64,000 bases of DNA from Myxosarcina sp. GI1 (GTDB lineage: Bacteria > Cyanobacteriota > Cyanobacteriia > Cyanobacteriales > Xenococcaceae). A program made the position numbers and the translations under genes. The DNA lies in assembly GCF_000756305.1 (NCBI RefSeq), contig NZ_JRFE01000013.1, positions 426 through 64,425 of the forward strand. The letters are read 5' to 3'. This document shows positions 24,944 to 63,009 of this stretch, piece by piece. Each line of letters begins with the position of its first letter. Position 1 is the first letter of the stretch. The notes beneath the pieces are model-generated. The model saw nothing but the letters and a program-made list of their open reading frames with translations, was not told the DNA's origin and searched no databases.

Positions 24944-26656
24944 GTGTCTACAACTTCATATAGTCCCACTTTATCTTTAAAACAACAAATCGGACAAATG
25001 ATTATTGTCCGCGCTTCTGGCTATCTATTCGACCATCAAATTAGATATCCTGCCTGGGAAGCTAGCAACACTAAGTTACAAACATGGCTGGAAGAATTAA
25101 ACTTAGGCGGAGTAATTTTATTAGGGGGTAGCAGTGTCGAACTACAGGCGCGATCGCGTCAACTGCAAGCCTGGGCAAAGACTTCTTTATTTATCGCAGC
25201 CGATATTGAAGAAGGAGTAGGGCAGCGTTTTAGCGGTGCGACATGGTTTCCGCCACCGATGGCGTTAGGGGCAATTGCGGCTAAAAACCTCAGCTTGGCA
25301 GAGAAATATGCAACAGAAATTGGTGCTATTACTGCCAGAGAAGCCTTAGCAGTAGGCATTAACTGGCTATTAGCACCTGTAGTAGATGTCAACAATAATC
25401 CTGATAACCCTGTAATAAATATTCGTGCTTTTGGCGATAATCCTGTTATTGTCAGTAAATTAGCAGCGGCTTTTATTAAAGGTGCCAATTCCCAACCAAT
25501 TTTAACTACCGCCAAACATTTCCCAGGACATGGAGATACTGCCGTCGATTCTCATTTGGCTTTACCCTCGTTACCTCATTCAGATTCGCGTCTGGCAGCA
25601 GTGGAACTACCGCCGTTTGAAACGGCGATCGCTGCTGGCGTAGACAGCGTGATGACGGCGCATCTATCTATTCCTGTTTGGGATGAAAGATACCCTGCAA
25701 CTTTGTCTTCGGCAATTGTAAACGATCGCCTGAGAAAGCGGCTAGGTTTTGATGGTTTGGTAGTTACCGATGCTTTGATTATGGGTGGTATAACTAAATT
25801 TGCCTCTCCAGAAGAAATTGCGATAAGGGCAATCGAAGCTGGTAGCGATATTTTATTAATGCCCGACGATCCCGAAGTGGCAATCGCTGCTATTTACAAT
25901 GCCGTAATGTCTGGGCGCATCAGCCGACAAAGAATTGAAGAGTCTCTCGCCCGCATCGCAAAAGCGAAAGCTAAAGTAATTAGTAATAGTGAGGCAGAAT
26001 TATCCCTGTTATCTACTAAGAAAGCAAAAGTTTTGGTTAAAGCAGTTTTACAAGACTCGTTGCGATCGGGAGGCAAGTTACCACTGCGATCGCAGCCAGA
26101 TATCGAGCAACGCTCAATCGCAACAGCCCTTCAAAGAAGGGCACGCCCCCTAGCGGGGGCGGGGAAGCAGAGCTTCCCGTCTGGAGGGAACCTCCAGCGA
26201 CCGATTGAGTCGCGCAATTTAATTGTGGTAGACGATGTACTTAACTGTGCTTTTTTAGATATTCATACTCCAGCAATAACTATTCCCCAACAGTTTAATT
26301 ACCACAGACAGATCGTAGATTACAATACCATTGGCGCGATCGCTACCGCTCCCAGACCGACGCTACTACAAATATTTATTCGGGGCAATCCTTTTCGCGG
26401 TACTTCTGGGCTAACTACTCAAACTAAAAGTATTTATCGGCAACTTGTATCTAAAGAATTGGTAACGGGTTTAATTATTTATGGCAGCCCCTATGTTTTA
26501 GACTGGTTTATTAGCTTTATGTCTCAAGATTTGCCCTGGGTATTTTGTTACGGACAAATGTCAATAGCGCAGGCGATCGCGCTAAAAACTTTATTTAACC
26601 TTCCTTCAGATGAAAAGTACACTATTACTAAAACTGAAATAGATTTTGGATTTTAG
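24944..26656 (+). CDS. Glycoside hydrolase family 3 (NagZ-like beta-N-acetylglucosaminidase)
   Basis: A 570-residue GH3 enzyme. It is expected to release N-acetylglucosamine from muropeptides or glycans. The NagZ catalytic histidine motif KHFPGHGDTAVDSH is at about residue 190 and the nucleophile motif VTDALIMGGI at about 274. A GTG start lies 6 bp after the rbfA stop. About residues 394-418 (QRRARPLAGAGKQS and following) are not GH3 sequence: they come from an in-frame block of four DNA hairpins. This sits after the barrel domain, so the fold may tolerate it. The C-terminal part (PRPTLLQIFIRGNPFRG, IIYGSPYVLDWF) resembles the second domain of GH3 enzymes. Confidence 0.88.
   Translation: MSTTSYSPTLSLKQQIGQMIIVRASGYLFDHQIRYPAWEASNTKLQTWLEELNLGGVILLGGSSVELQARSRQLQAWAKTSLFIAADIEEGVGQRFSGATWFPPPMALGAIAAKNLSLAEKYATEIGAITAREALAVGINWLLAPVVDVNNNPDNPVINIRAFGDNPVIVSKLAAAFIKGANSQPILTTAKHFPGHGDTAVDSHLALPSLPHSDSRLAAVELPPFETAIAAGVDSVMTAHLSIPVWDERYPATLSSAIVNDRLRKRLGFDGLVVTDALIMGGITKFASPEEIAIRAIEAGSDILLMPDDPEVAIAAIYNAVMSGRISRQRIEESLARIAKAKAKVISNSEAELSLLSTKKAKVLVKAVLQDSLRSGGKLPLRSQPDIEQRSIATALQRRARPLAGAGKQSFPSGGNLQRPIESRNLIVVDDVLNCAFLDIHTPAITIPQQFNYHRQIVDYNTIGAIATAPRPTLLQIFIRGNPFRGTSGLTTQTKSIYRQLVSKELVTGLIIYGSPYVLDWFISFMSQDLPWVFCYGQMSIAQAIALKTLFNLPSDEKYTITKTEIDFGF
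26113..26209. repeat. Four-hairpin repeat block in frame inside nagZ
   Basis: Consecutive perfect hairpins: GCCCTTC/GAAGGGC loop AAA (26126-26142), CGCCCCC/GGGGGCG loop TAGC (26144-26161), GGGAAGC/GCTTCCC loop AGA (26162-26178), CTGGAGG/CCTCCAG loop GAA (26181-26197). They are enclosed by an 8-bp inverted repeat, CTCAATCG (26113-26120) and CGATTGAG (26202-26209). The block is read through without a stop. Confidence 0.85.
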
Positions 26657-26798: not shown

Positions 26799-27041
26799 AT
26801 GACAACTGCAACTGTTTCACCTGCTCCTAAAATAGGCTATTCCTTAGATAGCATCAAAGACGAAGCTCGCCAGCTAATTGAGAAAGGCGTTATTAGTCGC
26901 CAACAGCCAATTTACGTACTTTGTAAGTTTATCCCCGCTCGTGAATGGGTCGGAGTTGAATGCGAATTGGAAAGATGTGATTATTTACTCCGCGATCCTA
27001 TTGGCGATTTGGTTGCTTATCAAACTTGGGAAAATGATTGA
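26799..27041 (+). CDS. DUF4327 family protein, copy 1
   Basis: An 80-residue cyanobacterial protein of unknown function. The core, from YSLDSIKDEARQLIEKGVISRQQPIYVLC to PAREWVGVECELERCDYLLRDPIGDL, matches DUF4327. It is small, soluble and rich in charged residues. It is strongly similar to the second copy 335 bp downstream (27376-27618). A strong terminator follows at 27106-27132, so each copy is probably its own transcription unit. No regulatory link can be seen. Confidence 0.85.
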   Translation: MTTATVSPAPKIGYSLDSIKDEARQLIEKGVISRQQPIYVLCKFIPAREWVGVECELERCDYLLRDPIGDLVAYQTWEND

Positions 27042-27375: not shown

Positions 27376-27618
27376 ATGAGTACCAATGCCGCTTTAGCCC
27401 CAAACTCCCTTCAATATTCTATAGAAACTCTTCGAGAAGAAGTACGTCATCTAGTAGAACGAGGAGTTATTCGACGCACTCAACCCCTATATGTTTTGTG
27501 TGAGTATTTACCCGCTAGGGAATGGTTGGGAATTGAGTGCCAATTGGAAAGATATGACTACTTGCTTCGCGATCGCATTGGAGATTTAATTGGCGAACCA
27601 CGGTGGGAAAGCGATTAA
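27376..27618 (+). CDS. DUF4327 family protein, copy 2
   Basis: An 80-residue paralogue of the protein at 26799-27041, with nearly the same blocks (YSIETLREEVRHLVERGVI, QPLYVLCEYLPAREWLGIEC, YDYLLRDRIGDLIGE). N-termini differ (STNAALAPNS against TTATVSPAPK), consistent with an older duplication. The function is unknown. It is preceded by a terminator-like hairpin 110 bp upstream, which may be part of its leader. Confidence 0.85.
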   Translation: MSTNAALAPNSLQYSIETLREEVRHLVERGVIRRTQPLYVLCEYLPAREWLGIECQLERYDYLLRDRIGDLIGEPRWESD

Positions 27619-61605: not shown

Positions 61606-63009
61606 ATGCGCTTGAGTCTTTTAGGTAAACTATCGATCTATACGGCTATTCTGGCTATACCCCAACTAATAGTTCCCACTTCCGACACTGCCTCTTGCTG
61701 GAAGGCGATCGCCGCAGAGGTAACAGAATATGGCGAACCTGGAGAACAGGGAGTGACGGGAGCTAAAGGCAAGGACGGACGCAATAGCGATAGCCTTACT
61801 GTATTTGCAGACGGTTCGCCAATGACTTTAGATTTGTCTGGAGAAAATGGTTATCCTGGTGGGGTTGGTGGTAAGGGTACCAATGCTGTTTGCGATGAGC
61901 AGCCCAAAGATTTAAACAAAGATATACGCAGTTCTAACGGCGGTAATGGTGGCGACGGCGGTAACGGTGGTGCGGGTGGTAATGGTGGAGAATTAACCGT
62001 CTATACTACCGATAAACGCAATCTCCAGCAGATCTACGTAATTGCTACTGGAGGAGAAGGTGGCAGTCCTGGTGCTGGAGGAGAAGGCGGCAGCGGTTGT
62101 CAGTGCGATACTAATTATTGGGATCGCGAAACTTGTACGGGTAAACCTGGAAGTCCCGACTATAACTGCACCACTAGCGAATTTCAATGTCTTGATGGTT
62201 ATTCTGGCAGAAAAGGCAGAGAAGGTATCGACGGTAGAGAAGGGCGTTTGGGTAAGCTGACTTTAATTAACTCCGAAAAATCTCTCGCGCCAGACCAACC
62301 TGAAGCTGCAATTCCCATTAACCAACTTCAAGAGCGAGGGGTGACTCTCTCTAAAAATATTTGGGAAACCAAAACAGGTGCGACCAAATTATTTGCTCCA
62401 GGTTCTATATTAAGGGACGAATACCAAGAATTAGTAGCACGCAATGAACATACGGTTCTGGTCGTTTGGGATGCACCCCAGCCTGTAGGTGAGTTTGCCG
62501 ATGAAGAGGTGACTTTAAGTCTGAAAGGAGAAAATGATGCTAACGTTACGCTACCAGACGATCTCTGGTTAGAAACCACTACCCTCAAACAGGATAAAGT
62601 TACCGAACTGTTTGTTTTTAATGCCGTTAAAGAAAAAAATGTCACTAGACTAACCAGCAAAGGAGTATCGGGAAATGGTAGCAATCTTCAATGGGAAATA
62701 GTAGATAAAGCTAACCAATCTGATGTCTTAAATACAGACTTTACCATCGCCTATCGAGTTAGTCCTTCTTCAGAAGAAGCCAGGTTTCGTCGAGTGTACG
62801 ACTACGAAACTAAATATAGTGGTGAGGTTCCTGCCGAGGCGATTATTCGCGAAGGCGATCGCTTTACTTTAGAATTGGGTAAATTACCCGTTCCCCCAGA
62901 ATCTCTTCAGCCAGGTGTAGCCATAGAAGTTTCTCTGGTTGCCAATCGCTCTTTAGGCGATCGCTCGAAAGAGCAAAAAATGTTTATTCGCGACATCATT
63001 GAAGACTGA
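61606..63009 (+). CDS. Exported collagen-like glycine-rich protein
   Basis: A 467-residue protein with a signal peptide-like start (MRLSLLGKLSIYTAILAIPQLIV). Residues about 44-60 have Gly-X-Y repeats (GEPGEQGVTGAKGKDG), followed by Gly/Asn-rich tracts (GGNGGDGGNGGAGGNGG and GGEGGSPGAGGEGGSG). A cysteine-rich insert follows (CQCDTNYWDRETC...DYNC...FQC) and another collagen-like run (GRKGREGIDGREGRLG). The second half (about 230-467) is globular, with beta-sandwich-like sequence and no recognised domain. Collagen-like proteins in cyanobacteria are linked to envelopes or adhesion. The gene stands alone. Confidence 0.8.
   Translation: MRLSLLGKLSIYTAILAIPQLIVPTSDTASCWKAIAAEVTEYGEPGEQGVTGAKGKDGRNSDSLTVFADGSPMTLDLSGENGYPGGVGGKGTNAVCDEQPKDLNKDIRSSNGGNGGDGGNGGAGGNGGELTVYTTDKRNLQQIYVIATGGEGGSPGAGGEGGSGCQCDTNYWDRETCTGKPGSPDYNCTTSEFQCLDGYSGRKGREGIDGREGRLGKLTLINSEKSLAPDQPEAAIPINQLQERGVTLSKNIWETKTGATKLFAPGSILRDEYQELVARNEHTVLVVWDAPQPVGEFADEEVTLSLKGENDANVTLPDDLWLETTTLKQDKVTELFVFNAVKEKNVTRLTSKGVSGNGSNLQWEIVDKANQSDVLNTDFTIAYRVSPSSEEARFRRVYDYETKYSGEVPAEAIIREGDRFTLELGKLPVPPESLQPGVAIEVSLVANRSLGDRSKEQKMFIRDIIED

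Follow-up and report, generated by a model that had tools for sequence, protein, structure and literature searches.

The window, i.e., the whole stretch of 64,000 nucleotides analysed from Myxosarcina sp. GI1, carries on its forward strand a nagZ-type GH3 open reading frame (ORF) at 24944-26656. Its 570-aa product contains a Glyco_hydro_3 domain (PF00933, residues 12-340) and a Bac_GH3_C domain (PF18034, residues 422-552), and a segment rich in hairpins lies between the two. As the earlier note had claimed, the reading frame stays open across this segment. The four perfect GC-rich hairpins reported in the same note can be read directly in the sequence over 26126-26197 (+ strand), each with a 7-bp stem: GCCCTTC/GAAGGGC (26126-26142), CGCCCCC/GGGGGCG (26144-26161), GGGAAGC/GCTTCCC (26162-26178) and CTGGAGG/CCTCCAG (26181-26197). 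The fourth is assigned to the basic unit described below, as its inner hairpin, and the first three form, in tandem, an extra block (26123-26180) of about 54 nt beyond that unit, as judged from the comparison of units. The outer 8-bp inverted repeat is equally real. Its 5' strand (CTCAATCG, 26113-26120) pairs with its 3' strand (CGATTGAG, 26202-26209), which bears a GAG at its end, and this helix, seen in the sequence and in the fold, is common to 45 aligned members of the family presented hereafter. The segment does not start at 26113 as first proposed: it begins 8 nt earlier and includes a small 5' hairpin (GAGC AAC GCTC, 26105-26115), whose pairing is kept in class-1 members, together with the first copy of the repeated GAG. 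The whole element, both copies of the end word included, spans 26105-26210 (+ strand, 106 nt). The net insertion amounts to 102 nt, e.g., 26105-26206, and adds 34 codons (residues 388-421) instead of the 24 or so initially estimated.

Folded as RNA, the region 26103-26219 reaches -64.5 kcal/mol (z -6.74), and none of 200 dinucleotide shuffles was equally stable; so strong a fold may, as the earlier note suggested, alter the structure of the mRNA. Over 427,153 bases of the genome, the nagZ segment is the only place where at least two such hairpins cluster; a finder of direct and inverted repeats run over positions 25900-26400 reported no repeat. Downstream of nagZ, two adjacent 80-aa ORFs (26799-27041 and 27376-27618) encode clearly similar proteins, and sequence resembling them is present near nagZ in some relatives. 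Elsewhere in the window, an 18-bp unit is repeated in tandem in about 2.9 copies (61935-61988).

At the protein level, the NagZ-type product was aligned with 50 other proteins from the family and the order, taken from the retrieved loci only, the fragment L127 being left out. The alignment displays 34 extra residues just before the motif RNLIVVDD, which are found in none of the 50 other proteins. Such a comparison had been suggested in the earlier note, and it reveals an insertion, not conserved residues. The linker just upstream of the insertion varies among species and has its own low-complexity stretches, none of them with this sequence. Three NagZ-type proteins of other species (L005, L012, and L023) carry low-complexity insertions of their own slightly upstream, in the same linker. 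The solved homologue 3SQL aligns to the nagZ product on both flanks of the gap. In a predicted model built from an alignment of 36 relatives (mean pLDDT 85.9), residues 381-420 are the weakest, with block means of 65, 59, 52, and 52, and are placed between two ordered domains. Alignment and predicted model are both consistent with a longer protein linker, and the lengthened NagZ is presumably made and functional.

The nagZ segment belongs to a dispersed family. An intergenic 52-nt copy on contig C50 matches both nagZ ends, over 14 nt on the left and 20 nt on the right, in the same order and orientation, with identity over the 20 nt of 26191-26210; another copy, C10, shares the CTGGAG/CTCCAG hairpin of nagZ. 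Searches with the end pattern yielded further 52-nt relatives, five of which served to build a first model (R1) that was run on 27 genomes of the bacterial family, which we take to be Xenococcaceae-like from the placement of Myxosarcina. Matches up to E 1 were considered and at most the best 150 candidates per genome were scored; at E 0.001 or better, matches occur in at least five of the 27 genomes, weaker ones being treated cautiously. A second model (R2) was built from 45 matches, with the nagZ copy excluded from the seeds. In 1,226,633 bases of the organism's own DNA, it detects nagZ 26105-26210 (32.6 bits, E 7e-5) as well as two other matches over the full length, at E 0.001 or better. 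Extended to 292 genomes of the phylum, with the best 20 candidates per genome scored, R2 reaches E 0.001 in at least five genomes, with at least 15 matches in the own genome, at least 19 in a Myxosarcina MAG (G019), and at least five, three and one, respectively, in G040, G012, and G063, which belong to a different family of the same order. In Chondrocystis sp. NIES-4102, one more copy lies inside a CDS annotated on a plasmid. Altogether, at least 80 places (72 distinct sequences) were listed in the own genome and its relatives, the weakest of which may be false.

At the DNA level, the whole nagZ segment was found in one of 291 genomes, its own, and blastn gave no match for the nagZ element against plasmids nor for two class-1 units. 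No sequence similar to the three-hairpin extra block was found elsewhere among 254 sequences searched. This lack of a second copy of the middle hairpins would suit a purely local event, in which template switching or slippage generated inverted repeats in nagZ unrelated to the other copies. Such an origin is nevertheless improbable, as the ends and the outer structure of the segment fit the dispersed family; the idea of lone tandem hairpins was rejected on the same ground. The reading of the earlier note holds as regards an in-frame coding insertion, but it missed the dispersed family, with its defined ends, and the compound make-up of the nagZ copy.

The basic unit of the family comes in two lengths, 48 nt in class 1 and 54 nt in class 2. 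From 5' to 3', it consists of an end word X, a loop, the complementary word X', the rest of the outer stem, a short internal loop, an inner hairpin, the second strand of the outer stem, and again X. The loop of the first hairpin is AAC or similar in class 1 and longer (GCGGAATGC) in class 2. X' can pair with the 5' X, in the small hairpin, or with the 3'-end X, in the outer stem. The sequence of the members varies widely while their stems covary. Indeed, in 45 aligned members, themselves selected by a model of the same structure, standard pairs fill 93.7% of 701 pair cells, and none of 500 shuffles equalled the covariation score of 0.747 (0.204 in shuffles). The 5' hairpin offers a fairer test of pairing because the model that picked the members did not contain it: 46 of 52 cells are paired there, for a shuffle mean of 36.3 and a maximum of 44 in 5000 shuffles. 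Of 36 distinct class-1 members, 29 have the same 3-nt word at both ends (12.4 on average and at most 23 in 10,000 shuffles), the commonest X/X'/X triples being GAC/GTC/GAC, GAG/CTC/GAG, and TAG/CTA/TAG.

Net lengths are multiples of three in 34 of the 36 class-1 members (48 nt in 31 of them; 42, 96, and 102 nt once each), the two exceptions being 44 and 46 nt. When members of both classes were measured automatically, 41 of 46 had a length divisible by three and five did not. Since a single value accounts for most of these lengths, the rule of three does not represent many independent events. The nagZ copy corresponds to a 48-nt unit plus the approximately 54 nt of its three extra hairpins (102 nt), and a copy in G046 to 48 plus 48 (96 nt); these sums suggest nesting. 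A 100-nt copy (L161, 1501-1600) located in an open frame of 304 codons has 48 extra self-folding nucleotides in the loop of its inner hairpin. Three near-identical copies in G207 (L194, L195, and L198) are found inside a GTAGTAGG-like simple repeat.

Many copies reside in other genes. Of the 80 listed places, 40 (raw count) fall in open frames of 100 codons or more. A Pfam scan of 31 frames (30 of the 42 listed open frames of this size, plus the plasmid CDS) found a domain in 21 of them. The domains of the copy-bearing frames include FKBP, UvrD helicase, IscB-like RRXRR/HNH, OrfB_IS605, CbiX, IS240-type transposase, HypF, DUF3854, Uma2, HAD, PCMT, KTSC, DNA polymerase A, and integrase. Some copies are thus within genes of other mobile elements, namely the IS240-type transposase, IscB-like, and OrfB_IS605 ORFs (L160, L192, and L159). 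In-frame palindromic insertions occur in several unrelated genes, such as nagZ, EgtD, HypF, and others. In EgtD and in HypF, the copy coincides with a 16-residue gap relative to the solved homologues 4UY6 and 3VTH, respectively. A CbbY-like protein has 19 residues more than 4UAR at a 14-codon copy, an inexact match, and a further copy overlaps a dnaG-type ORF at its 3' end. No empty site was seen at the DNA level; a search for one among HypF relatives returned only the same Myxosarcina MAG and three distant proteins.

Copies within genes lie in phases 0, 1, and 2 and in both orientations, those in HypF and EgtD running in the opposite one. A depletion of stop codons in the elements was looked for against shuffles and not found: on average, 3.14 of the six frames are open, against 3.84 when dinucleotides and 3.13 when single letters are shuffled. 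Stop codons are not scarce in the elements and, therefore, nothing indicates an adaptation to coding.

The strong hairpin of nagZ, flanked by identical GAG triplets that are in phase in this gene, recalls the programmed translational bypass of phage T4 gene 60, and either such a bypass or a removal at the RNA level could in principle keep the segment out of the protein. This is extremely unlikely. Skipping is unnecessary because the frame runs through the segment, which adds whole codons, and in other genes, where copies lie in all three phases, the repeated word often does not coincide with a codon. Translational bypass was rejected on these grounds, together with the presence of copies in the opposite orientation, as in HypF and EgtD.

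The compensatory changes in two helices, and the fact that most intergenic copies may be transcribed, would also be expected from a structured regulatory RNA, as opposed to a mobile DNA element. Copies in both orientations, in unrelated genes and in transposase-type genes, speak against it, as does an Rfam scan of six loci, including nagZ, which gave no match up to E 1. As the main reading, a regulatory RNA was rejected and is deemed very improbable.

Another competitor is the known REP superfamily, whose members are spread by a TnpA-REP (Y1) transposase recognizing a GT[AG]G guide at the foot of the hairpin. Reports on REPs describe a similar size, a hairpin with an internal loop, and in-frame intragenic copies (PMC3733652, PMC6006769), and the own genome has four Y1_Tnp genes. 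In contrast, of the 80 listed places, nine have GT[AG]G near the 5' end and nine have it on the opposite strand. Among eight Y1 loci in three genomes, none includes the element at E 0.05, and the Myxosarcina MAG G019 has at least 19 elements but no Y1_Tnp match. Membership of the REP superfamily is accordingly unlikely.

The nagZ segment is, in all likelihood, one copy of a small non-autonomous palindromic element inserted in nagZ. The element would be mobile and made of a unit having X at both ends, an internal X' able to pair with either X, and an inner hairpin. Its insertion would add 48 or 54 nt, i.e., whole codons, and copies landing in an open phase and within a tolerant loop would give a longer yet readable protein. 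Copies would survive in genes because whole codons are added, and no special adaptation would be needed because the elements show no shortage of stop codons. The nagZ copy would have gained later, or arrived with, the approximately 54 nt of three more hairpins, leading to 102 nt; this extra block may represent a second insertion.

The pairing abilities of X' bring to mind IS608, a member of the IS200/IS605 family, in which the tetranucleotides of cleavage and target are recognized through pairing with a short guide that lies 5' of a hairpin (PMC5934647). By analogy with what is described there, the X' of the cyanobacterial unit could pair with both end words. Unlike IS200/IS605 elements, the cyanobacterial element is a single hairpin unit and no transposase was seen with it. 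By this likeness, the insertion site might be chosen by base pairing, X' pairing with the target X and with the X of its own 3' end, a proposal that is possible but rather doubtful. If it were true, units with different X' would target different words (GAC, GAG, or TAG), and the 48/54-nt unit would rank with the smallest mobile elements programmed by a guide; its length would permit an in-frame colonization of genes and a growth by nesting (96 nt in G046 and 102 nt in nagZ).

In-frame palindromic insertions are already known. Rickettsia palindromic elements, as portrayed in the literature, are palindromic repeats of about 150 bp, divided into ten families and found in frame in unrelated protein genes (PMC10969869, PMC3733652). 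The cyanobacterial element is likewise palindromic, repeated and in frame in unrelated genes; by description, it differs from them in its unit of 48 or 54 nt, its fixed two-helix plan, and its repeated end words. Intragenic GTAG/CGTC REPs are also presented as short hairpin repeats that occur in ORFs, single or grouped, and encode 20-30 residues or more, and REPs inside the subclass 2.4 tnpA-REP genes of Cyanobacteria and Bacteroidetes preserve the frame (PMC3733652, PMC6006769). The cyanobacterial element resembles these in being a short hairpin repeat within ORFs but has X/X'/X ends, no regular GT[AG]G foot, and no linked Y1 gene. The family is thus distinguished from both precedents by its unit and its ends and by the missing GT[AG]G foot. 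Compared with a MITE, which has terminal inverted repeats and a target-site duplication, the same 3-nt word stands at both ends (29/36 class-1 members), this word also pairs internally, and no empty site was seen. No description of the 48/54-nt family was met in the literature search, which is not proof of absence. Elhai et al. in 2008 are said to have described very small mobile dispersed repeats in cyanobacteria.

The present family adds a case from free-living cyanobacteria, in which the anatomy is defined, the repeated ends are clean, and conserved enzymes have gained exactly 16 or 34 residues. Such a family offers a tractable case for deciphering how tiny elements devoid of genes move, what selects their sites, and how often working proteins get lengthened.
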